A stretch of DNA of 40,613 nt from a virus. The position numbers and the translations under genes are program-made. The stretch covers positions 1 through 40,613 of IMG/VR virus record IMGVR_UViG_3300032246_000338; one strand, 5' to 3'. Below are positions 2,996-11,494 of the stretch, one piece after another; position 1 is the first letter of the stretch; each line of letters begins with the position of its first letter. Under the pieces are notes generated by a model. The model was not told the DNA's origin and ran no database searches. It saw nothing but the letters and a program-made list of their open reading frames with translations.

Positions 2996-3293
2996 AGGAA
3001 GTAAACAAAATGGTGGTCGTCCAATCTATGTGTTCAAGCGCAAGAAGAAAGACGGAACGACTGTTACGACATCTAGCAATAAGGCTCGCATTGATTACGA
3101 AAAGAACACAGGCAAGACGCTACCTAAAACCACTGACGTGGACCATAAAGATAATGGTGGTCGCGCTGGTCGTGATGGCGCTAGCAATCTCCAAGCAATG
3201 AGCCATTCAAAGAACGTTGCTAAAGAAAACAAACGCAGAGCCACAGTTAAGAAGGCTACACCTAAAAAGAAAGTGGTTAAAAAGAAGCCATGA
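2973..3293 (+). CDS. HNH-type endonuclease-like protein with lysine-rich tail
   Basis: 106 aa starting at ATG 2973 inside the previous gene. The motif TTDVDHKDNGGRAGRDGASNL followed by QAMSHSKNVAKEN is the compact HNH core (DH...N...N) seen in phage HNH and homing endonucleases. The final 25 residues are almost entirely Lys, Arg, Ala and Pro and probably bind DNA non-specifically. It could be a free-standing homing nuclease or a packaging- or recombination-linked nickase; the normal operon spacing and overlaps argue that it is an integrated gene rather than a recent intruder. Confidence 0.7.
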   Translation: MKIFGPYKGSKQNGGRPIYVFKRKKKDGTTVTTSSNKARIDYEKNTGKTLPKTTDVDHKDNGGRAGRDGASNLQAMSHSKNVAKENKRRATVKKATPKKKVVKKKP

Positions 3294-4030
3294 AAAAAAT
3301 CGTAATCATTTCAGACCTGCAAGTGCCTTACCATGACGTAGAAGCAGTCAATGCTATAGCGAAGTTCATCAAGGCATACCAACCAGATACCGTTGTATCT
3401 TGTGGGGATGAGATGGATATGCAGACCATCAGTAAGTGGAGCAAAGGTACAGAATTAGAGTACGAACGCACCATTGGTCGTGATAGGGATATGACACGTC
3501 AAGTGCTATATGATTTAACTATCGAGCATATGGTACGAAGCAACCACACAGACAGATTGTTTAACACCGTTGCAATGAGAGTACCAGGATTACTTGGTTT
3601 ACCAGAGTTACAACTTGAGAACTTCCTTGGTCTCAAAGAACTAGAGATTGAGTACCATGCTGACCCGTATGAACTAGCCCCAGGATGGCTACTCATGCAT
3701 GGTGATGAGGGCAACGTACAGCCTACAGCAGGGGCTACAGCCCTTGGTCTGGCCAAGCGTAGCGGAATGTCCGTAGCCTGTGGTCACACGCACCGTATGG
3801 GCCTTACACACCACACACAGACCTATCGTGGCGGTAAGCCTAAGACTGTATGGGGACTTGAATTGGGAAACCTCATGGATTACAAGAATGCTAAGTATAT
3901 CAAGGCTGGGTTATTTACATGGCAACAAGGATTTGGTATCTTACACGTTGATGGCAACACAGTCGTACCACAAATCGTACCGATTATCAATAGTTCATTC
4001 ACCGTGGAAGGCAAAACCTGGAAGTGGTAA
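3290..4030 (+). CDS. Calcineurin-like metallophosphoesterase
   Basis: 246 aa with all five phosphoesterase motifs in order: SDLQVPYH (8-15), GDEMD (39-43), SNHTDR (84-89, the GNH[D/E]-like block), MHGDEG (136-141) and GHTH (165-168). These coordinate two metal ions in enzymes that hydrolyse phosphomonoesters, phosphodiesters or nucleic acid ends. In phages such genes often sit with replication or DNA-repair genes, as here, and the substrate may be a nucleotide or DNA end. ATG 3290 overlaps the previous stop (ATGA). Confidence 0.85.
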   Translation: MKKIVIISDLQVPYHDVEAVNAIAKFIKAYQPDTVVSCGDEMDMQTISKWSKGTELEYERTIGRDRDMTRQVLYDLTIEHMVRSNHTDRLFNTVAMRVPGLLGLPELQLENFLGLKELEIEYHADPYELAPGWLLMHGDEGNVQPTAGATALGLAKRSGMSVACGHTHRMGLTHHTQTYRGGKPKTVWGLELGNLMDYKNAKYIKAGLFTWQQGFGILHVDGNTVVPQIVPIINSSFTVEGKTWKW

Positions 4031-4713
4031 TGAACTGGGACCGCATACAGCCGTGGGATTACATCGTATCTCATGTGGCAGATGAGTATCATAAGAAGTT
4101 CAACATGGTTGACCGCGAGGATATCCGTCAATCGTTATATGAATGGTTTGTGTTGCATCCACTTAAGTTAACGGAGTGGGAAGCGTTCAGCAAGAAGTCT
4201 GCGCAGAACTTATTGTATCGTTCGCTTCGCAATCAAGCCTTAGATTACTGTCAGTTCTGGAAAGCCAAGACACTTGGCTATGAAATGTCAGATGTATTTT
4301 TTTATGATGCTGCCGTTGTTGAGGCTATCCTGCCATCAGTATTGCGTGGTGATGTAACTGAGGCGCCTAAGTTAGACCTTGGTATGCCAGGAAGGCCATC
4401 TGCTCCAGCCGAAGGCGGTAATTTAATGGCTATGATGGCTGAGGTTAAGGCTGGGTTTGTAAAGTTAAGTGATGAGGATAGAAACATTCTCTATCAGAAG
4501 CATGCTAACTCGCTGACATATGGAGGAATAGCAGAGGTGCTTGAATTACCTAGTGATGATGCTGCTAGAATGCGCCATAAGCGTGCAATCAAGAGGCTGA
4601 TTACACGCCTTGGCGGATTCCGCCCTTGGCTAGATAAAGACGAAGCACAAGAGGTTGGGCAAGATGAACCCAACGAAAGTAAAGATGAAACCCAAGATGA
4701 GCAAACCGATTAG
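4024..4713 (+). CDS. Sigma-factor-like helix-turn-helix protein
   Basis: The preferred start is ATG 4030, overlapping the upstream stop (TAATG), giving 227 aa; GTG 4024 also opens the frame. The N-terminal half (VDREDIRQSLYEWFV... AQNLLYRSLRNQALDYCQFWKAKTLG) resembles sigma70 region 2 helices. The segment LSDEDRNILYQKHANSLTYGGIAEVL plus DDAARMRHKRAIKRLITRLGG resembles region 4. The C-terminus is an acidic tail. It is a good candidate for the phage regulator that redirects host RNA polymerase, or for a replication-linked HTH protein. It is the last early rightward gene; its stop lies only seven bases from the convergent leftward gene. Confidence 0.65.
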   Translation: MVMNWDRIQPWDYIVSHVADEYHKKFNMVDREDIRQSLYEWFVLHPLKLTEWEAFSKKSAQNLLYRSLRNQALDYCQFWKAKTLGYEMSDVFFYDAAVVEAILPSVLRGDVTEAPKLDLGMPGRPSAPAEGGNLMAMMAEVKAGFVKLSDEDRNILYQKHANSLTYGGIAEVLELPSDDAARMRHKRAIKRLITRLGGFRPWLDKDEAQEVGQDEPNESKDETQDEQTD

Positions 4714-5146: not shown

Positions 5147-5256
5147 TGCTCCTCCATATATTTCATGAATGCTTTGTCCCAATCGTAGTTGTCAAAGTAC
5201 TCCGCTATTCCTTCGCATATACTATCGCGTAAGCCCTGCATCTCATCTTCTGTCAT
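5143..5256 (-). CDS. Small acidic protein, 37 aa
   Basis: Reads MTEDEMQGLRDSICEGIAEY and continues FDNYDWDKAFMKYMEEQ, then TGA. It starts by TAATG overlap with the FmdB-like gene upstream, with AGGAGGAT as ribosome binding site, and its TGA overlaps the next ATG (ATGA). The tight coupling on both sides and good ribosome sites support it as a real gene. Function is not recognised; the charge and length are typical of phage host-interacting peptides. Confidence 0.65.
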   Translation of the reverse strand: MTEDEMQGLRDSICEGIAEYFDNYDWDKAFMKYMEEQ

Positions 5257-5432
5257 TATCCTCCTGTTGAATAGAAGCCAGTTCCATTGAACTTCACCGC
5301 AGTAGGCAAGATAATCCTACGCATGATTCGTAAACAATGCTGACAAGTTGGACACTCATCTCGTTGCTCTATGTCGCGCCAATGCTCTTCTTGCGTATCG
5401 CAATCATCACACCTGTAGTCATAGTTCGGCAT
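5256..5432 (-). CDS. FmdB-family zinc ribbon protein
   Basis: 58 aa beginning MPNYDYRCDDCDTQEEHW, with CDDC and CPTC pairs that form the FmdB/CxxC-CxxC zinc ribbon, and the family-typical end GTGFYSTGG. ATG 5432 overlaps the stop of the lysozyme-fold gene (TAATG). Such ribbons are small regulators or nucleic-acid-binding accessories in bacteria and phages. The longer frame from 5474 lies within the upstream gene and is not preferred. Confidence 0.8.
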   Translation of the reverse strand: MPNYDYRCDDCDTQEEHWRDIEQRDECPTCQHCLRIMRRIILPTAVKFNGTGFYSTGG

Positions 5433-5818
5433 TAGTACCAACCCTTTCTCTTGTGAAACTTCCATGCTGTGCATGGTGTCCCGTATCGGTGCATGATGTA
5501 GGCAAATCCCCTGTCAATTTGCAAGGGTGGCAATGTTTGTGTTGACATTCCCAATATTTGCGGGATACCGCCAGCGTTCTTGCCCATCACCTTGCGTTTA
5601 TTGTATGCCTCAGGTCTCCAATGGGATTCCTTGTTCCATAACTTCTCTAGACATAGGTATTGATTGTCGGCCCATGCTTGAACAGTATCCCTAGCATAAG
5701 CCTTGCTATCTGCGACTTTCCATTCTCGTACTGGTGCTTTGTCTATCCGTTTAAACGGATGAGATATTACGCCCACCGCTACAAGTATAACCAGCAATAG
5801 AGCCAACTTCTTTACCAT
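5432..5818 (-). CDS. Membrane-anchored lysozyme/transglycosylase-fold protein
   Basis: 128 aa. Residues 1-20 are a Lys-Lys start plus a hydrophobic segment (signal or anchor). From about 58 the sequence LWNKESHWRPEAYN, GKNAGGIPQILGM, QIDRGFAYIMHRYGTPCTAWKF and a final GWY match the SLT/Rpf-like lysozyme fold; Glu64 is the likely catalytic acid. It would cut peptidoglycan glycan strands from outside the membrane, for entry, superinfection control or lysis support. It is separate from the CHAP endolysin on the other strand. A palindrome copy (5744-5760) falls inside codons for HPFKRI. Confidence 0.75.
   Translation of the reverse strand: MVKKLALLLVILVAVGVISHPFKRIDKAPVREWKVADSKAYARDTVQAWADNQYLCLEKLWNKESHWRPEAYNKRKVMGKNAGGIPQILGMSTQTLPPLQIDRGFAYIMHRYGTPCTAWKFHKRKGWY
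5744..5760. repeat. Palindrome copy 1 (TATCCGTTTAAACGGAT)
   Basis: Perfect inner palindrome TCCGTTTAAACGGA, located inside the 5' coding part of the lysozyme-fold gene. One of nine copies restricted to 5.7-11.5 kb. Likely a protein-binding DNA site. Confidence 0.85.
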
Positions 5819-5819
5819 A

Positions 5820-6182
5820 TTACCCCCTGACCAGCGGAGATAGCACCCTGTAACTGATGAGTGCTCTACCTTGGTCGCTTAGTTTAGTATAGGTCTTGCC
5901 ACTTAGTATGACACGCTCACCTGCAAGCATACCACCCCAAATGCCAAAGCCCAAGTTTTCATGCTTCATACCTTCTTCAAGGCACTCGGCTTTCTTTGGG
6001 CATAAGTTACACAGGGTCAAAGCCCTGCGTGTCTCTGCCACTAGTTTGGCTGTGTTCCTCTCGGAACGCGCACCTTGTGGTACATCAGGGAACCAAGCAT
6101 CAGGATTAGAATCCCCATGACAGTTGCCTAGTATCTGCTCAGTCTTCAAACTGCGCATCATGCCATTGGTCTGGGTCTCCAT
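5820..6182 (-). CDS. whiB: WhiB-family iron-sulfur transcription regulator
   Basis: 120 aa from ATG 6182 behind GGAGG; ATG 6200 is an alternative. It has the four WhiB cysteines (Cys21, Cys58, Cys61, Cys67, i.e. NCHGD... and CNLCPKKAEC) that hold a [4Fe-4S] cluster, and the diagnostic GFGIWGGM turn at 79-85. WhiB proteins are restricted to actinobacteria and their phages and act with the host principal sigma factor, so this gene marks the host phylum. It may turn host or phage promoters on or off. The gene overlaps the small acidic gene 6139-6246. Confidence 0.92.
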   Translation of the reverse strand: METQTNGMMRSLKTEQILGNCHGDSNPDAWFPDVPQGARSERNTAKLVAETRRALTLCNLCPKKAECLEEGMKHENLGFGIWGGMLAGERVILSGKTYTKLSDQGRALISYRVLSPLVRG

Positions 6183-6246
6183 CGTCCTCCTCTTCCTCAT
6201 AGTCCTTGCCTAGTGCTATGTCATCTTCTTCCCTTGGTTCACTCAT
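6139..6246 (-). CDS. Small acidic protein, 35 aa
   Basis: Begins MSEPREEDDIALGKDYEEEE and ends WHDAQFED. AGGAGG stands 6 bases before ATG 6246. It overlaps both the preceding 45-aa zinc-finger gene (its TGA is at 6239-6241) and the start of WhiB. More than a third of the residues are acidic. The function is unknown; translational coupling with WhiB suggests a linked role. Confidence 0.65.
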   Translation of the reverse strand: MSEPREEDDIALGKDYEEEEDDGDPDQWHDAQFED

Positions 6247-6376
6247 CTTTTTCCTCCTCATGATTCATACATATTGTATGAAAGTCATTTGTCCAGTATG
6301 AATGTACTACATCGCCACAGTTATCACAGGTTATACTATCTTCATCATCTTCTATGAAAGTATATACACTACTCAT
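6239..6376 (-). CDS. Small zinc-finger-like protein, 45 aa
   Basis: Reads MSSVYTFIEDDEDSITCDNC and continues GDVVHSYWTNDFHTICMNHEEEKDE. Cys17-x2-Cys20 followed by a His and a further Cys/His pair could bind one zinc ion. The start overlaps the upstream stop (TGATG) and the stop overlaps the next start. It is one of several Cys-rich mini-proteins in the leftward operon; the role is unknown. Confidence 0.65.
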   Translation of the reverse strand: MSSVYTFIEDDEDSITCDNCGDVVHSYWTNDFHTICMNHEEEKDE

Positions 6377-6675
6377 CACGCACCATCCATTCCTGCATCG
6401 GATAGGTCTCCATACTGTGGCACTTGGCTGTCATTGGTAATGCAATCTAGGACATACTCGAACTCAGGTCGGTGCGCTATCTCAGGTACATCCGTATCCC
6501 AAATCACATTATAACCATAGTTCTCATCCCAAGTTAATCGTCCAGCAAAGAACTCTTTACGATAGCCATTGCTAAGTTCAAAGTCCTTCACCCATGCCGT
6601 TTCTCTACGGCGTTGCTGTCTAACTGTAAACAATTCTTTCATCTCTTGAATTGTTACTTGGTCTATTCCGTTCAT
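6376..6675 (-). CDS. Hypothetical protein, 99 aa
   Basis: Starts with TAATG overlap at 6675 and has an Arg-rich helical N-terminus (MNGIDQVTIQEMKELFTVRQ, then QRRRETAW) and an acidic, aromatic C-terminal half. No family recognised. Both ends are translationally coupled to neighbours, so it is a genuine member of the leftward operon. Confidence 0.7.
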   Translation of the reverse strand: MNGIDQVTIQEMKELFTVRQQRRRETAWVKDFELSNGYRKEFFAGRLTWDENYGYNVIWDTDVPEIAHRPEFEYVLDCITNDSQVPQYGDLSDAGMDGA

Positions 6676-6875
6676 TACGCTTCCTCCTCTTCTTCATCTT
6701 GCTCAACCATATCTACTACCACATTTTGGATTTCCCCATGATAGAGATTATCCTGCCACTCGTAGGTGGCGAGGTCACTTGCTTGCATGTCATCATCTGC
6801 CTCAAGAGTGAAGTAGAACTTGACTGTTACTTCTGCCTCGTACTGTACCGCATCATCTGATGGTTGTGGTCTCAT
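6675..6875 (-). CDS. Hypothetical acidic protein, 66 aa
   Basis: ATG 6875 overlaps the stop of the upstream 43-aa gene (TAATG). It has a beta-rich core (VQYEAEVTVKFYFTLEADDD) and a poly-acidic tail ending EQDEEEEEA. The tail may mimic nucleic acid, but this is conjecture. No family recognised. Confidence 0.65.
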   Translation of the reverse strand: MRPQPSDDAVQYEAEVTVKFYFTLEADDDMQASDLATYEWQDNLYHGEIQNVVVDMVEQDEEEEEA

Positions 6876-7006
6876 TATATTACCTCTCGTAGTAGTAATC
6901 GGACTTGTGCTATCTTGCTATCGAGCCTTGCATCTGTCTGCTGTGTAAGCAACTGTAGGTAGTCGATAAGGACTTCCCGTAATTGCTCGCGTTGTTGCGC
7001 TGTCAT
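6875..7006 (-). CDS. Small helical protein, 43 aa
   Basis: Reads MTAQQREQLREVLIDYLQLL and continues TQQTDARLDSKIAQVRLLLREVI, an uninterrupted amphipathic helix with Leu/Ile spacing of coiled-coil type. GGATAGGAG lies just upstream of ATG 7006. Its TAA overlaps the next ATG. It may be an oligomerising adaptor or inhibitor; no homologue recognised. Confidence 0.65.
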   Translation of the reverse strand: MTAQQREQLREVLIDYLQLLTQQTDARLDSKIAQVRLLLREVI

Positions 7007-7013
7007 GTTGCTC

Positions 7014-7274
7014 CTATCCTCTGTTGAATGACGGGGCATAGACTGGTTCTATGCTCGCGTTGACTAGATTCCTAGCCCATTCTACGGCTTTCTCCATAGT
7101 ATCAAATGGACCATAGATTACTGTGCTATCCATATCTATTTGAGTTATGGTAATCCAACTGTTCACCATTTGCCCTGATAAGGGCTCGATGATGGTTATG
7201 GATTTGTTTGTGTCGGAATTTTTCTGTCCGTTTAAACGGATGGTATTATTTGCCGAAGTCGAAGTGCTTGTCAT
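7014..7274 (-). CDS. Hypothetical protein downstream of the amidotransferase, 86 aa
   Basis: The preferred start is ATG 7274, inside the end of the amidotransferase gene, preceded by AAAGGA. The upstream part of the open frame reaching 7427 only shadows the amidotransferase. The N-terminus is low-complexity and includes NTIRLNGQK, the residues encoded by a palindrome copy. The C-terminal part (YGPFDTMEKAVEWARNLV) looks like a small alpha/beta domain. It may be a third component of the amidoligase/amidotransferase set, from position only. Confidence 0.5.
   Translation of the reverse strand: MTSTSTSANNTIRLNGQKNSDTNKSITIIEPLSGQMVNSWITITQIDMDSTVIYGPFDTMEKAVEWARNLVNASIEPVYAPSFNRG
7226..7240. repeat. 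Palindrome copy 2 (TCCGTTTAAACGGA core)
   Basis: Palindrome core within the first codons of the 86-aa gene, flanked by TTTCTG as in copy 3. Translated on the minus strand it reads RLNG followed by QK. Confidence 0.85.
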
Positions 7275-8097
7275 AGTACCATGATTCCTTTCGTTGAGCC
7301 ATCTTAGCCTTGTCATGTGATGGTGTCCAGCATAGGCAGTCATCTTCGTATGCACCATAGCAGTCATAGCATGTGTAGCACATCTCGCAGTAGTAAGGAT
7401 TGGAATCCTCATATGCGATAACGCCACATCTACTACACTCGTTGGTGTCTATCAACCCTGCTGAGCATCCTTCTTTATCCTTGGCTGGTGTAGACCAGTA
7501 GGTACTAGATGCCCATGTAGTTGCTGTAGGCACATAAGGCTTGTAGCCATCGTTAGACCACCACATGCCCTCATTGTCCCAATGACCAGCACTCTCGTTG
7601 ATGATATAACATTGCTCCTTGGCGTTAGGGTCTAGGGTGAACACTACAATCTTGCTACCTAGTGACCACTTGCTGACCATAGTCCATACATGGTCATCAT
7701 CTAAGGCGGTAACACCACCCATGGAAGGCAAGGTATCCTCTGCAAAGATGCGCGTATCGCTACGCTTATCGCTAGGTGCTATCTTGATATCTAAGATACC
7801 ATTGTGAGCAAGGTAAGTATCTACATTGCTAGGCACCTTGAATGGGTGACAGTTGTCATCATTCTTGACACCATGCGTAGCATAGCGAGCATGGAACATA
7901 GCATAACTAGACGGGTACTGCTTGCGTACTTCTAGGAACTGTTTGATGATTTTCTTGGATGACATGCCACGACCTGTGACAATGCCATTAGGTGTAATAA
8001 CTGCAAAGCCAAAGCCATGCGGATTATTACAGGATGCACACTCAAGGTCTTTCTTCTTGGGTGTTGAGTTAGGTGATGCTACGACGAGTAGACACAT
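7246..8097 (-). CDS. Class II glutamine amidotransferase-like Ntn hydrolase with zinc-ribbon tail
   Basis: 283 aa if started at ATG 8097, which places the nucleophile Cys at residue 2 (MCLLVVA), as class II amidotransferases need; ATG 8106 is the other option. The family-like blocks HGFGFAV, FHARYATHG (68-76) and AHNG (97-100) fit glutamine binding and the oxyanion hole. Residues 221-256 are a Cys-rich array (CSRCG...CEMCYTCYDC...CLC), probably two or more zinc ribbons. It should release ammonia from glutamine for a partner ligase. It follows the amidoligase by one base, so the two probably work as one enzyme. Confidence 0.75.
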   Translation of the reverse strand: MCLLVVASPNSTPKKKDLECASCNNPHGFGFAVITPNGIVTGRGMSSKKIIKQFLEVRKQYPSSYAMFHARYATHGVKNDDNCHPFKVPSNVDTYLAHNGILDIKIAPSDKRSDTRIFAEDTLPSMGGVTALDDDHVWTMVSKWSLGSKIVVFTLDPNAKEQCYIINESAGHWDNEGMWWSNDGYKPYVPTATTWASSTYWSTPAKDKEGCSAGLIDTNECSRCGVIAYEDSNPYYCEMCYTCYDCYGAYEDDCLCWTPSHDKAKMAQRKESWYYDKHFDFGK

Positions 8098-8098
8098 G

Positions 8099-9331
8099 TT
8101 ATGCACTTACTTTCTGTCCGTTTAAACGGACACTAGGTTCAATGAGTCGCGCCATGCGCTCATTCAGTTCAGGGTACAAGTCTGCATGAGACTCGATATA
8201 GGTCATGAAGGAGTCGGTGCTTAGCCCACCTTCTTTGACTTGATTGACGGACATTACTCGGGTGAACTCAACGCTGGCATGCGCCAAGTCTATATGGGAT
8301 TTGATGGTATCAACCTTGGTAGTACCGCGGAAGATGCGCATCTCTAGGGTTGCTTGGTTCTGTGTATTGACCGCAGAGTATCGGTCACTACGGGTGCCAT
8401 GCTGAATCTTCTCGCGGAAACTACGCCATGTCTTGTAGTTGCGAGAGCCATTCTCATCACGCTCACCATTCCACGCTGATTGCATGACATCGTCGAACTT
8501 AGCCCAACGGCTAGATGAGCGACCAGCGAGAGTCTCGTAGAACACTTGATTGCTATAGACAAGGTTCAAGAATCGGTGCATGTGAGCACCGCCATTGAAT
8601 CCTGTGCGTGAGATGTGGATGTGAACACCGCATGTACCCGTACCCCACGACCTTACTTGATAGGTTTCTCGAAGACCATTCAACACTCTGAATAAATCTT
8701 CTGCTTGATTCTTGTAGAAGTCATGCGACATTGGATGCGTAACCAACTCGAACCCATGATTGAGTGAGCCGTCATGCTTGAGGTACGCCAAGTCCATGCC
8801 CTCCAGTTGGTAAGCATACTCGGATGCCTCACCATAATTCCTACTGCCAGCCTCTACCTCTACCTCAATGCCAAAGAACAAGCGTTCATTCTTATCGGTA
8901 CTGTGGAAGATAGGGTCAGGTCGGTAAGAGTAATCGTGGATAACTCTACTTGAATTACATGACTCGCAACCACTCTCGAAATATTGGTCACATTCATCAC
9001 AGAAGATAGCATTGTTGTCAGCGCAGATATTGCACCAGTAACAGCCCCTATCTTCGATATAGTATGTGCCTTCTGTGCCCCATTCCTCACAGGAATCACA
9101 CCAGTTAGCAGCACGCTCTGTACATGACAGGCACCAACGCGAGCATTGGTCTACCATGCACCAATCGTCATTCTCTGTGCCTATGTCATCACAGCGTTCA
9201 CATATGTAAGCGCAGTCATCACACACCCTATCGTTACTATATGAAACTGTACATGAATTGTCAGAGTTAATGCCAGTTGAACATACCACGCATGTGAACT
9301 CTGAATCATCTTCTGTTTCTATCATAACCAT
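8099..9331 (-). CDS. Amidoligase (glutamate-cysteine-ligase fold) with N-terminal zinc-ribbon array
   Basis: 410 aa (ATG 9331; ATG 9325 is also possible). Residues 14-125 contain 20 cysteines, mostly CxxC pairs, suggesting four or five tandem zinc ribbons. From about 152 the catalytic domain shows FFGIEVEVE, LKHDGSLNHGFELVTHP, TCGVHIHIS and TQNQATLEMRIFRGT, the order of the Amidoligase_2/GCS-fold ligases that form amide bonds using ATP. With the adjoining amidotransferase it should amidate or conjugate a carboxylate, perhaps on peptide, wall or protein substrates. A palindrome lies in its leader and another in its last codons (RLNGQKVSA). Confidence 0.8.
   Translation of the reverse strand: MVMIETEDDSEFTCVVCSTGINSDNSCTVSYSNDRVCDDCAYICERCDDIGTENDDWCMVDQCSRWCLSCTERAANWCDSCEEWGTEGTYYIEDRGCYWCNICADNNAIFCDECDQYFESGCESCNSSRVIHDYSYRPDPIFHSTDKNERLFFGIEVEVEAGSRNYGEASEYAYQLEGMDLAYLKHDGSLNHGFELVTHPMSHDFYKNQAEDLFRVLNGLRETYQVRSWGTGTCGVHIHISRTGFNGGAHMHRFLNLVYSNQVFYETLAGRSSSRWAKFDDVMQSAWNGERDENGSRNYKTWRSFREKIQHGTRSDRYSAVNTQNQATLEMRIFRGTTKVDTIKSHIDLAHASVEFTRVMSVNQVKEGGLSTDSFMTYIESHADLYPELNERMARLIEPSVRLNGQKVSA
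8116..8131. repeat. Palindrome copy 3 (GTCCGTTTAAACGGAC)
   Basis: Perfect 16-bp palindrome at the 3' end of the amidoligase gene, encoding RLNG; 19 bases before the amidotransferase start. Confidence 0.88.
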
Positions 9332-9338
9332 TCCAATC

Positions 9339-9356
9339 TATCCGTTTAAACGGATA
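9339..9356. repeat. Palindrome copy 4 (TATCCGTTTAAACGGATA)
   Basis: Perfect 18-bp palindrome between the promoter at 9391-9419 and the amidoligase start, i.e. just downstream of the expected transcript start. Best placed copy for an operator or roadblock. Confidence 0.9.
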
Positions 9357-9390
9357 ACTACATGAACGCACCATGCGCTCAAGTGGTACT

Positions 9391-9419
9391 AGTCTAAGCC
9401 CTAGCCAAGTTATTGTCAA
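9391..9419 (-). promoter_or_regulatory. Sigma70-type promoter for the amidoligase operon
   Basis: On the minus strand: TTGACA, 17-bp spacer, TAGACT, followed by AG. The TAG of the -10 box is the stop codon of the upstream 59-aa gene. The same TTGACN-17-TAGACT design occurs at 10178 and 10539. Confidence 0.75.
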
Positions 9420-9573
9420 GTAGGGCATCACTTATCTTGCCCCGTAATTGTGACACTTCGATAACTAGGATAGAGAACCCGTTCTTCTTATGGTTCTCCT
9501 CATTAGCCCTAAGTGCCATGCGGATGACCTCAACCTCTCTAGGTGTTAGGTCTAGTAGTAGGTTCTCGTTCAT
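9394..9573 (-). CDS. Small protein with sigma-region-4-like helix, 59 aa
   Basis: Reads MNENLLLDLTPREVEVIRMA, then a Lys/Glu-rich helix and ...GKISDALLDNNLARA. The LTPREVEVIRMAL stretch resembles the first helix of sigma70 region 4 or LuxR-type HTH domains, but the rest of the domain is not evident. ATG 9573 overlaps the stop of the preceding gene (ATGA). It probably binds another protein rather than DNA alone; function unknown. Confidence 0.6.
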   Translation of the reverse strand: MNENLLLDLTPREVEVIRMALRANEENHKKNGFSILVIEVSQLRGKISDALLDNNLARA

Positions 9574-9758
9574 CGCTGGAACTCCATGACTGTCTCAAAG
9601 ACAATATCGTCAAGTTTCTCGGTGAGTTCTCGCCACTCCGCAACGCTAAGGTTATGCCCAAGAATCTCTTGGACAAGTTCATAGTCGAGTTGCGACTGCC
9701 ATGAATTGTTTGTGTCGGAAAAATTCCTCACCAATTCGTCTGATGATTGGTATGTCAT
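9570..9758 (-). CDS. Hypothetical protein, 62 aa
   Basis: Starts at ATG 9758 by TAATG overlap with the small membrane-protein gene. Helical, with LSVAEWRELTEKLDDIVFETV near the end. Its 5' half includes a 15-bp sequence (9706-9720) also present at 7204-7218. No family recognised. Confidence 0.65.
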   Translation of the reverse strand: MTYQSSDELVRNFSDTNNSWQSQLDYELVQEILGHNLSVAEWRELTEKLDDIVFETVMEFQR

Positions 9759-9928
9759 TATTGGAGACCCCAAATTCCATCATCGGTCACTAGGTTGTAC
9801 TGTCTGCGCCAATAATCACGCGACTTGGTGAGCCTGTAATTGGCAATCGCTGTGGTGATGATGACGATAATTGACGAAGTTAGCGCAATCGTTAACGCAA
9901 CCAAGTCACATGCTGACAATGTAATCAT
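9758..9928 (-). CDS. Small single-span membrane protein, 56 aa
   Basis: Reads MITLSACDLVALTIALTSSI and then IVIITTAIANYRLTKSRDYW. Residues 8-30 form one clear transmembrane segment, followed by a positively charged stretch that should stay in the cytoplasm. AAAGGA precedes ATG 9928, and palindrome copy 5 lies immediately upstream in its leader. It may be a superinfection-exclusion or holin-type peptide; unproven. Confidence 0.7.
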   Translation of the reverse strand: MITLSACDLVALTIALTSSIIVIITTAIANYRLTKSRDYWRRQYNLVTDDGIWGLQ

Positions 9929-9944
9929 TTTATATCCTTTGAAC

Positions 9945-9961
9945 TATCCGTTTAAACGGAT
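9945..9961. repeat. Palindrome copy 5 (TATCCGTTTAAACGGAT)
   Basis: Lies between the structured leader (9964-10165) and the start of the small membrane-protein gene. Perfect 14-bp core. Confidence 0.88.
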
Positions 9962-9963
9962 GA

Positions 9964-10171
9964 GGTAACAATCTGTTACCCCGTAGGTGAATGTATCGGT
10001 ATCCGCTATGGTATCGCAAGCGTAGGCGCGTACAACATCATTTCAGGTTGCCCTGCTGATTGACTATACATACCGATACATTCGCGCTCACCGCAGGACT
10101 CGCACCTGCGTAACTACCTTTCGTGAGCCACCAGCCAGCACCGCCCAATTCGGTGCATGGCTATCGCCAAT
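9964..10171 (-). ncRNA. Candidate structured RNA or long folded leader
   Basis: A gene-free stretch directly behind the minus-strand promoter 10178-10206. In order of transcription it contains an 11-bp hairpin with one bulge (10133-10162); a tRNA-like two-helix fold, with a 6-bp closing stem GCTCAC/GTGAGC (10086-10091 with 10123-10128) around a 6-bp stem and 7-base loop TGCGAGT (10092-10110); a 14-bp perfect long-range pairing (9989-10002 with 10070-10083); and a 7-bp hairpin (9964-9980). The loop matches a tRNA T-loop except at one position. It has no anticodon or D arm, so it is not a tRNA. It could be a riboregulator, a decoy, or a leader controlling the membrane-protein gene. Confidence 0.5.
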
Positions 10172-10177
10172 AAGACT

Positions 10178-10206
10178 AGTCTACCATTGGGCTAAGTTCT
10201 AGTCAA
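10178..10206 (-). promoter_or_regulatory. Sigma70-type promoter driving the structured leader
   Basis: Minus strand TTGACT, 17-bp spacer, TAGACT then AG. The -35 hexamer overlaps the stop codon of the 43-aa zinc-finger gene. Predicted transcript start is about 10171, at the edge of the first hairpin. Confidence 0.72.
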
Positions 10207-10330
10207 GCACCCTTTGGGCGTTGGCATGGTCATAGCATATCTTCTCGGTGGGTACACCTAACAAGAACGCATCTGTACCGCTATAGACTAACTCCGTAGA
10301 GTTGCAACCTTCTACCATACATTCTCTCAT
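10199..10330 (-). CDS. Small zinc-finger-like protein, 43 aa
   Basis: Reads MRECMVEGCNSTELVYSGTD, then AFLLGVPTEKICYDHANAQR. Cys4 and Cys9 plus Cys32 and His35 may form one zinc site. ATG 10330 overlaps the upstream stop (ATGA), and AAGGAG lies just before it. Function unknown. Confidence 0.65.
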   Translation of the reverse strand: MRECMVEGCNSTELVYSGTDAFLLGVPTEKICYDHANAQRVLD

Positions 10331-10461
10331 TGTGACTCCTTGTTGGATGACTCGCGCAAAGCGATTACTCCGCGCTCATATCGTTCACGCTCTGCCTTCT
10401 GCTCGTTCAGGATATTAGTCTGAACCTGAAGGTGAGCACTTAACTCATCTAGGTTAATCAT
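10327..10461 (-). CDS. Small helical protein, 44 aa
   Basis: Reads MINLDELSAHLQVQTNILNE and continues with a Glu/Arg-rich helix of coiled-coil type. GGAG stands before ATG 10461 and palindrome copy 6 lies 16 bases upstream, in the leader of promoter 10539-10567. It is translationally coupled to the following zinc-finger gene. Confidence 0.65.
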   Translation of the reverse strand: MINLDELSAHLQVQTNILNEQKAERERYERGVIALRESSNKESQ

Positions 10462-10476
10462 TTCGTACTCCGTTCC

Positions 10477-10492
10477 ATCCGTTTAAGCGGAT
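10477..10492. repeat. Palindrome copy 6 (ATCCGTTTAAGCGGAT)
   Basis: Variant with TTTAAG in place of TTTAAA, so one dyad position is mismatched. Lies in the leader of the 44-aa gene. Confidence 0.85.
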
Positions 10493-10538
10493 GAGATAGT
10501 TGGGCATCAGTAAGAGTAGAACCCTTGCTGATGACTCT

Positions 10539-10567
10539 AGTCTACCCTATAAAGAAGTTTCGGTCAA
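10539..10567 (-). promoter_or_regulatory. Sigma70-type promoter upstream of the 44-aa gene
   Basis: Minus strand TTGACC, 17-bp spacer, TAGACT then AG. Palindrome copy 7 sits 20 bp upstream of the -35 box and copy 6 about 45 bp downstream of the -10 box, so the promoter is bracketed. Confidence 0.72.
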
Positions 10568-10586
10568 GCACCCCTAATGCTTCGTG

Positions 10587-10600
10587 TCCGTTTAAGCGGA
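10587..10600. repeat. Palindrome copy 7 (TCCGTTTAAGCGGA)
   Basis: TTTAAG variant, located just upstream of the promoter at 10539-10567. Confidence 0.85.
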
Positions 10601-10646
10601 TAGGGCGGTGTCATTCGTCAGCCGTTCTTCGGGGTTATCGCCATTC

Positions 10647-10699
10647 GTCGCTCGGTTTGTGTTGGTGGTAGGCGCGTGCCGTCACTCGGTTTGTGTTGG
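10647..10699. repeat. Two-copy direct repeat, 34-bp period
   Basis: GTCRCTCGGTTTGTGTTGG occurs at 10647-10665 and again at 10681-10699, with one difference. The region 10462-10767 (306 bases without a gene) otherwise holds palindromes 6-8, the promoter at 10539 and the terminator at 10716-10747. The GTTTGTGTNGG core also recurs at 7204-7218 and 9706-9720. Confidence 0.75.
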
Positions 10700-10715
10700 C
10701 CGAGAAAAAATAGGC

Positions 10716-10747
10716 AAAAAAATAACCCCACCCCCGAAGGGGTGAGG
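10716..10747 (-). terminator. Rho-independent terminator after the 197-aa gene
   Basis: Read on the minus strand, CCTCACCCC, loop TTCG, then GGGGTGGGG (one mismatch), followed by TTATTTTTTT. The stem is strong and the U-tract long, so the 11361 transcript should mostly stop here. Confidence 0.85.
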
Positions 10748-10760
10748 CTATTCTTTCGGC

Positions 10761-10778
10761 TATCCGTTTAAGCGGATA
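10761..10778. repeat. Palindrome copy 8 (TATCCGTTTAAGCGGATA)
   Basis: TTTAAG variant overlapping the stop codon of the 197-aa gene and lying 13 bases before its terminator. Confidence 0.87.
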
Positions 10779-11361
10779 CCATTGCGTTCTCGATTACAGC
10801 GTGGATTTCCGCTACTGTATCTTTCTGCTCCTCTGTGAGCGTGTTGATGTCTAGCGCGGTGAAGTAAGCGAGGATGTCTCCGAGAGTATCCTTGCTTCCC
10901 TTTGATGCGCTTGCGCTTGCCTTAGCCTTTGGGGCTTGCTTTGCTTTGCGCACAGTTGCAATCTCTTTGGTAAGAGATTCGAGAGACTTCTGTTGCTCAC
11001 CCTTTCCAACCCCGAGGATGTCATAAGATGCCATCGCGGTGCTGAGTTGCTTTGCAACGGGTAGGGCGCTGAAACCCTTGTGAACTTTGCGGAAGTTAAT
11101 CCATGTTGGAATTGCAGGGACATGGGATGCCTTGATGAATGATGACACCTTGCCACTATCCTCTAAGCCTTTGATGAACTTCTTTTTATCTGCAACCGAT
11201 AAGCGAGATTCGAGAGTGAGAACATTGTGAAGATTCACAATGGATTCGACTATCTGAGCCTCAGACTTATTCGATACTTCACACACATTGTTCCATGCGC
11301 TAGTAATCTTTGGAGCCTTAACGATAACTACCTGCTTTGGTGCTTTCTTTGATGCGGTCAT
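10768..11361 (-). CDS. Hypothetical basic protein, 197 aa, first gene of the leftward region
   Basis: Lys/Ala-rich at both the N-terminus (MTASKKAPKQVVIVKAPK) and a linker near residue 140 (KAKQAPKAKASASASKG), with a helical middle domain (SEAQIVESIVNLHNVLTLES; SVADKKKFIKGLEDSGKVSSF). It has its own promoter (11406-11434) and terminator and is therefore expressed as a single gene, probably strongly. The charge suggests nucleic-acid binding. It is a candidate for the factor that acts on the palindromes that flank it, but nothing in the sequence proves this. Confidence 0.75.
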   Translation of the reverse strand: MTASKKAPKQVVIVKAPKITSAWNNVCEVSNKSEAQIVESIVNLHNVLTLESRLSVADKKKFIKGLEDSGKVSSFIKASHVPAIPTWINFRKVHKGFSALPVAKQLSTAMASYDILGVGKGEQQKSLESLTKEIATVRKAKQAPKAKASASASKGSKDTLGDILAYFTALDINTLTEEQKDTVAEIHAVIENAMVSA

Positions 11362-11405
11362 GATGAACTACTTTCTGTTGGGTATGGCGTTGTTGCCATG
11401 CCCTA

Positions 11406-11434
11406 ACTATAGCATCCAACCTATCTATTCGCAA
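11406..11434 (-). promoter_or_regulatory. Sigma70-type promoter for the 197-aa gene
   Basis: Minus strand TTGCGA, 17-bp spacer, TATAGT. Predicted leader of about 38 nt to ATG 11361. Palindrome copy 9 lies 44 bp upstream. Confidence 0.65.
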
Positions 11435-11477
11435 GGGTGCATGAAGTAGGCGTAATACACTTACTTTAGCCCTATGT

Positions 11478-11494
11478 TATCCGTTTAAACGGAT
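11478..11494. repeat. Palindrome copy 9 (TATCCGTTTAAACGGAT)
   Basis: Outermost copy, in the divergent control region between the leftward operon and the late operon. Confidence 0.88.

Follow-up and report, generated by a model that had tools for sequence, protein, structure and literature searches.

An adjoining amidoligase and class II glutamine amidotransferase, both with predicted metal modules, in a freshwater actinophage family

Identity and active sites of the two enzymes

The IMG/VR viral record IMGVR_UViG_3300032246_000338, 40,613 bases long, was analysed over its whole length (hereafter the window) and may itself be a fragment. On its minus strand lie two adjoining genes, which we propose to encode the subunits of a glutamine-dependent amide ligase. 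The first (8099..9331) specifies a 410-residue protein that a profile match, a structure model and invariant residues identify as a GCS/GS-fold carboxylate-amine ligase of the Amidoligase_2 family (PF12224); the second (7246..8097) specifies a 283-residue protein related to class II (Ntn) glutamine amidotransferases (GATases), with Cys2 as the nucleophile. One base separates the ligase stop (8099) from the GATase ATG (8097), a start that gives Met-Cys, the mechanical start of this open reading frame being a GTG upstream at 8106. Both open reading frames and the one-base gap agree with an earlier note, made from the letters of this DNA, which had proposed an amidoligase and an Ntn-type amidotransferase, each with zinc-ribbon arrays.

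The ligase scores 36.3 bits against PF12224, for which the curated cutoff is 22 (E = 7e-9). With its structure model (mean pLDDT 88), Foldseek retrieved YbdK and glutamine synthetases from the PDB (E-values of 2.6e-4 to 1e-3), as well as GmaS and Dop, the YbdK-type proteins being the best matches; a direct PDB sequence search with the ligase gave no credible match. In 46 close-relative ligases, 47–93% identical to the window protein, the residues E156, E158, D187–S189, G193, E195, P200, G235, H237, H239, R242, R271, Y318, N322, T328, E330, R332 and F334 are invariant, and they remain so, E156, E158, E195, H237, H239, E330 and R332 among them, when five distant lineages are included (Marvin, MEP402, the Manatee Spring phage, a C. 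difficile phage and a gut contig). The ATP/metal residues of the GCS/GS fold (GxExE, E..V..P, HxH, ExR), whose loss was looked for, are retained in both the close and the diverse alignments, and they fall in register with those of E. coli YbdK (GIEVE/GIELE, CGVHIHIS/FGQHVHVG, TLEMRIF/TVEVRVM; hhalign E = 7.5e-4) in one comparison, made with the diverse alignment, the tight alignment giving an hhalign probability of 0.2. The catalytic part of the protein is also better conserved than its N-terminal Cys array (64% vs 42% mean identity).

The GATase matches phrog_25883 (E = 1.6e-38), and its structure model retrieves the glutaminase domain of GlmS as top Foldseek match (E = 2.6e-6, probability 1.00), followed by EgtC and PurF; direct PDB sequence searches gave weak matches to PurF and GlmS (E-values of 0.008–0.13). 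Its motifs HARYATHG...NCHPF...AHNG...RSDTR align with HTRWATHG...NAHPH...VHNG...SETDTE of GlmS, so that the position-2 Cys nucleophile, the Arg and Asp for glutamine and the Asn-Gly oxyanion hole are all present, and Cys2, R71, T74, H75, G76, N99, G100 and D114 are invariant in 42 GATases. Fold and residues fit a divergent protein that probably works like a class II GATase. Neither enzyme looks inactivated, because the catalytic residues are invariant and in register with those of YbdK and GlmS. The motifs on which the earlier note had relied (FFGIEVEVE, CGVHIHIS and LEMRIFRGT in the ligase; Cys2, HARYATHG and HNG in the GATase) are present as quoted, and both of its fold assignments held. In addition, the catalytic part of the GATase contains four extra cysteines, C20, C23, C83 and C163, which are invariant or nearly so in the 42 relatives; for the CxxC pair C20/C23, a link to redox chemistry or to a metal is conceivable.

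Predicted metal modules of the two enzymes

The first 125 residues of the ligase contain exactly 20 cysteines, 16 of which are conserved ligand positions organized in four CxxC...CxxC units, i.e., four Cys4 (Cys/His) metal modules that span residues 14–125 (8957..9292, minus strand). The ligand sets are C14/17/37/40, 44/47/67/70, 78/81/100/103 and 111/114/122/125, and C27, C58, C63 and C97 are incidental. Fourteen of the 16 ligands are invariant in the 46 ligases; at the two others, the substitute is in most cases His or a shifted ligand (C81: 38 C, 7 H, 1 G; C125: 31 C, 5 H, 10 other). Outside the ligands, the array evolves fast, as reflected by its mean identity. It is modelled with a pLDDT mostly between 84 and 95 as a series of CxxC / hairpin / CxxC-helix units, which look more like treble-clef or LIM-like fingers than like plain zinc ribbons.

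The GATase carries its own metal modules in its C-terminal tail (residues 221–256; 7330..7437, minus strand), where nine cysteines follow residue 205 and eight of them, enough for two sites, are invariant in 42 of 42 relatives. The pattern CxxC-x12-CxxC-xx-CxxC-x7-CxC is also found in gp106 of Marvin. By hhalign, this tail aligned with the last module of the ligase (probability 58–73%, E-values of 3e-5 to 1e-4 when calculated for a single comparison), a likeness that is suggestive of a common origin and falls short of proof because both segments are Cys-rich, while it lends some support to a docking role shared by the two arrays. The earlier note thus counted the ligase cysteines correctly and slightly overestimated those of the GATase tail (about ten); its term zinc ribbon was not quite right, and its idea of shared docking modules gains from the alignment of the tail.

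The bound metal is probably zinc, given that the paired CxxC motifs are conserved, over 16 positions in the ligase and eight in the GATase, and that Cys/His exchange is tolerated at two of the ligase positions. Fe-S clusters were also considered and were judged less likely in the ligase array because Cys/His exchange occurs at ligands 81 and 125; the C-x2-C-x2-C-x2-C run of the GATase tail may still accommodate one.

Conservation of the pair and its genomic setting

Sixty-three loci fetched with the GATase alone contained a recognisable GATase open reading frame; the ligase lies directly upstream in 61 of these, and in the two that remain the contig starts within the GATase. Conversely, 20 of the 24 loci fetched with the ligase also carry the GATase, the remaining four ending in or just after the ligase. 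The gap between the two genes ranges from −32 to +37 nt in this freshwater actinophage family, whose loci are not independent because they all come from one phage group. The same order is found in Marvin (gp105/106), MEP402 (gp6/7), the Manatee Spring phage, LUZ24 (gp18/19) and phiEco32 (84/83), and in 22 of 24 loci from Oscillospiraceae and other Clostridia, the other two being truncated. The Clostridia loci came from a scan in which the gut relative served as the single query protein, and a scan of the genome collection with the tight alignment gave no matches. In a Rhizobium phage, an ATP-grasp gene and small open reading frames separate the ligase from the GATase, and in a Bifidobacterium phage a protein with a TIELR motif precedes the GATase. 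The survey of relatives that the earlier note had called for therefore supports conserved pairing, in actinophages as in separate lineages, and the failure to co-occur that it had envisaged was not seen. In the Clostridia contigs (L197–L220), the pair often lies beside resolvase, DUF3846-like or YqaJ/DUF932-like recombination genes (named by eye), suggesting mobile elements.

The window shares TerL (79%), portal (81%), helicase (81%), capsid and other genes with the Planktophila phages LanE43-AprE7 and AprF5 (hereafter E7 and F5), whose hosts belong to 'Ca. Nanopelagicales' (PMC10202952). Because of this common backbone and of the WhiB protein that the phage encodes, its host is likely a freshwater bacterium of the Nanopelagicales type. 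These cultured relatives (OX376640, OX376641; L266, L267) do not contain the ligase-GATase pair, which can thus be considered an accessory cassette. The pair sits in a leftward region that is probably early. In the corresponding TerL-WhiB interval, E7 has a small acidic open reading frame (L266:423-773), which is likely the ardA homologue reported for this phage (PMC10202952); the presence of an ArdA-like gene in the interval of the pair hints, by its location, at a counter-defence island. Neither the ligase nor the GATase matched the anti-phage defence profiles of PADLOC, and when the genes flanking the pair were searched for a small conserved one that might encode a substrate, some proved to be conserved within actinophages, but none of these occurs in the distant lineages. 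Near the early region, we also observed genes for a transglycosylase-like protein (5432-5818), WhiB (5820-6200) and an FmdB-like zinc protein (~5256-5434, named by eye) on the minus strand, and for a metallophosphoesterase (3290-4030) and a sigma-factor-like protein (4024-4713) on the plus strand.

The pair is also embedded in a set of palindromes. The sequence TCCGTTTAAACGGA, or a form with one mismatch, occurs nine times in 5746-11493 (0.08 expected); one copy lies just upstream of the ligase start (9341..9354) and is syntenic in relatives, another within the 3' end of the ligase open reading frame, just before the GATase start (8117..8130), and another just past the GATase stop (7227..7240). 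In relatives (L003-L023, L115, L164, L192 and the full contigs L226-L265), perfect 14-bp palindromes occupy syntenic positions close to the starts of early genes, with sequences that differ from that of the window; each phage has one type, all copies of which are alike (GTCGGCTAGCCGAC, TTCGGTTAACCGAA, TCGGGCTAGCCCGA and others). A 197-residue protein (10768-11361, minus strand), for which no Pfam or PHROG match was found, is encoded by 13 of 14 palindrome-bearing contigs and by none of seven without palindromes. In the exception (G008), the first palindrome is already at base 46, and the contig edge has probably cut the gene off. The identity of this protein is 68% within palindrome types and 39% between them, whereas the corresponding values hardly differ for the ligase (66/60), the GATase (78/75) and TerL (92/89). 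Palindrome types are scattered on the TerL and GATase trees, and the sites therefore appear to change in place. A natural guess is that the 197-residue protein is a phage regulator whose palindromic operators co-evolve with it. Shared ancestry is a partial confounder of their co-occurrence because several palindrome-less phages branch together; E7 and F5 have neither the palindromes nor the protein. The closest precedents are the extended start-associated sequences of cluster K phages, whose inverted-repeat consensus likewise varies from phage to phage (PMC3203893).

Known cassettes, proposed function and alternatives

A role of phage amidoligase/GATase cassettes in modifying the cell wall or peptides was already predicted in 2009 (Iyer et al. 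2009, as cited in PMC5498523 and PMC10580990), and in RIO-1-like podoviruses, including phiEco32 and LUZ24, they are referred to as a 'peptidoglycan modification cassette' (PMC5498523). The pair has also been noted in OM43 phages and in Marvin, with superinfection exclusion or secondary metabolism as suggested roles (PMC10580990), the former link being made in both papers (PMC10580990, PMC5498523). Novelty of the pair as such was therefore overstated in the earlier note, as Marvin, OM43 phages, LUZ24 and phiEco32 were already on record as carrying it (PMC10580990, PMC5498523). In the literature surveyed, we found no biochemical test of any such cassette and no description of metal modules on both partners, the original 2009 account being represented there by the papers that cite it. 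What is new here is the minimal two-gene form, with no RimK and no cyclotransferase, together with metal modules on both partners.

The closest architecture is that of Marvin (cluster S), in which gp105 and gp106 are, as in the window, an adjoining amidoligase and class II GATase (~30% and 32% identity), with a Cys-rich ligase N-terminus and the same eight-Cys GATase tail. Marvin differs in the shorter Cys array and C-terminal extension of gp105, in the 79-nt spacing and in its genome type. GenBank records of cluster S call gp105 (L090 5920-7281) a glutamine amidotransferase domain protein, apparently wrongly, the sequence of gp105 being that of an amidoligase and that of gp106 a GATase. The pairs of Oscillospiraceae also have a ligase with an N-terminal Cys array directly before a class II GATase, but the latter lacks the Cys tail, and host phylum and element type are different. 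In the OM43 phages MEP401 and MEP402, gp6 and gp7 form the same pair in the same order (PMC10580990), whereas the ligase has a long unrelated N-terminus with two CxxC motifs only and the GATase no Cys tail. The phiEco32/LUZ24/RIO-1 cassettes share the PF12224 ligase followed by a class II GATase and add a second COOH-NH2 ligase, a RimK ATP-grasp and a gamma-glutamyl cyclotransferase; a search of the window, possibly a partial genome, for PF08443 (RimK) and PF06094 (GGACT) gave no match. Hosts themselves have a two-gene wall-amidation system, MurT/GatD (PMC3267633). It resembles the pair in its ligase and glutaminase logic. MurT and GatD themselves adopt the folds of a Mur ligase and a class I GATase and have no sequence relationship to the pair, and MurT carries a Cys4 array.

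The folds, the intact active sites, the conserved pairing and order, the conserved metal ligands and the accessory status of the cassette constitute the computed support for a joint function. We favour, with a probability of about 60%, a two-subunit, glutamine-dependent ATP amide ligase that acts early on a host carboxylate. The GATase would hydrolyse glutamine by means of the Cys that becomes N-terminal on Met removal (Cys2 of the translated protein) and release ammonia, which would pass to the ligase, where a carboxylate would be converted with ATP/Mg2+ into an acyl phosphate and then into an amide. The metal modules, presumably loaded with zinc, would dock the subunits to one another, to the substrate, or both. 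The substrate would most likely be a carboxylate of a cytoplasmic host molecule, a side chain or the C-terminus of a protein or peptide being slightly favoured over a peptidoglycan precursor, and its change may help to take over the host or to protect against rivals or defences, the pair being presumably made early in infection. In a more specific version, which we put forward tentatively and consider rather unlikely, metal fingers on both subunits would recruit a particular host protein, the Asp/Glu side chain or C-terminal carboxylate of which would be amidated early.

Several observations weigh against an amide ligase of this kind. The global TM-scores of both proteins to their PDB matches are low (~0.3-0.45), in part because of the extra modules, and the GATase tail is modelled at low confidence (pLDDT about 51-73). 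Of the two profile assignments that the earlier note expected, Amidoligase_2 was recovered above its cutoff, but the class II GATase models were below theirs (GATase_4, 21.0 for a cutoff of 23, E = 1.8e-4; GATase_6, 21.2 for 27, E = 3.2e-4). The ligases of LUZ24, phiEco32, and the Rhizobium and C. difficile phages have no CxxC array, and the GATases of MEP402, Manatee and Clostridia no Cys tail. The Clostridioides phage AR1086-1 encodes a ligase (L093 4749-5861) without Cys array and without an adjoining GATase, because of which the ligase alone may be useful there. The gene next to this amidoligase resembles a nucleotidyltransferase.

The pair might rather act on the cell wall, by amidating a side chain of a precursor peptide or joining an amine to it, with the exclusion of competing phages as outcome. 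Such is the role currently proposed for the phiEco32/LUZ24/RIO-1 cassettes, in which the gene order is the same (PMC5498523, PMC10580990), and MurT/GatD offers a precedent for wall amidation by two genes (PMC3267633). The transglycosylase-like gene close by (5432-5818) points in the same direction, but this neighbourhood is not specific because E7 and F5 have the transglycosylase gene and no pair. The action would be that of MurT/GatD carried out by unrelated folds, and Cys4 arrays are atypical of wall enzymes, MurT being an exception; moreover, RimK ATP-grasp and gamma-glutamyl cyclotransferase were not found in the window. We regard the wall as a strong alternative target, if on balance a less likely one, and the probabilities of this proposal and of the amide ligase model overlap because one chemistry underlies both, the former being a special case. 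The two proteins could also act in succession, the ligase attaching an amino acid such as glutamate to a target, from which the Ntn enzyme, as a hydrolase, would remove it. EgtA, a GCS-fold ligase, works in this manner with a class II Ntn hydrolase in ergothioneine synthesis (EgtA/EgtC), YbdK-type proteins are the best structural matches of the ligase, and the GATase model also retrieves EgtC (E = 4.5e-4), which makes such a cycle possible. However, the GATase is nearer to GlmS glutaminase domains (E = 2.6e-6), if by a modest margin, its GlmS motif set (HxRxATHG / N.HP / HNG / SDT) is complete and no third enzyme matching EgtB was seen, all of which makes successive action unlikely.

Auxiliary nitrogen metabolism, in which a small amide or gamma-glutamyl metabolite would aid nucleotide or amino-acid supply, has been put forward for a planctomycete phage that encodes both an amidoligase and a GATase (PMC10945688); it is improbable here, since small-molecule enzymes do not usually carry metal docking modules on each of two subunits and no biosynthetic neighbours are conserved across lineages. 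Even less credit can be given to enzymatically idle remnants serving as binding scaffolds through their Cys arrays: the invariance of the Cys ligands and the sub-threshold Pfam scores of the GATase would fit this scenario, but no catalytic position varies among proteins of 47-93% overall identity, and the array is less well conserved than the catalytic domain.

Amidoligase/GATase cassettes span phages of several bacterial phyla and mobile-element-like Clostridia contigs, and since 2009 their function has been deduced from gene neighbourhoods alone. The two-gene form with putative docking domains is suited to reconstitution from two proteins, and Marvin, which is grown on a standard strain of M. 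smegmatis and has the same architecture, provides a genetic model. If amidation guided by metal fingers proved true, it would represent a new post-translational chemistry of host takeover or counter-defence.

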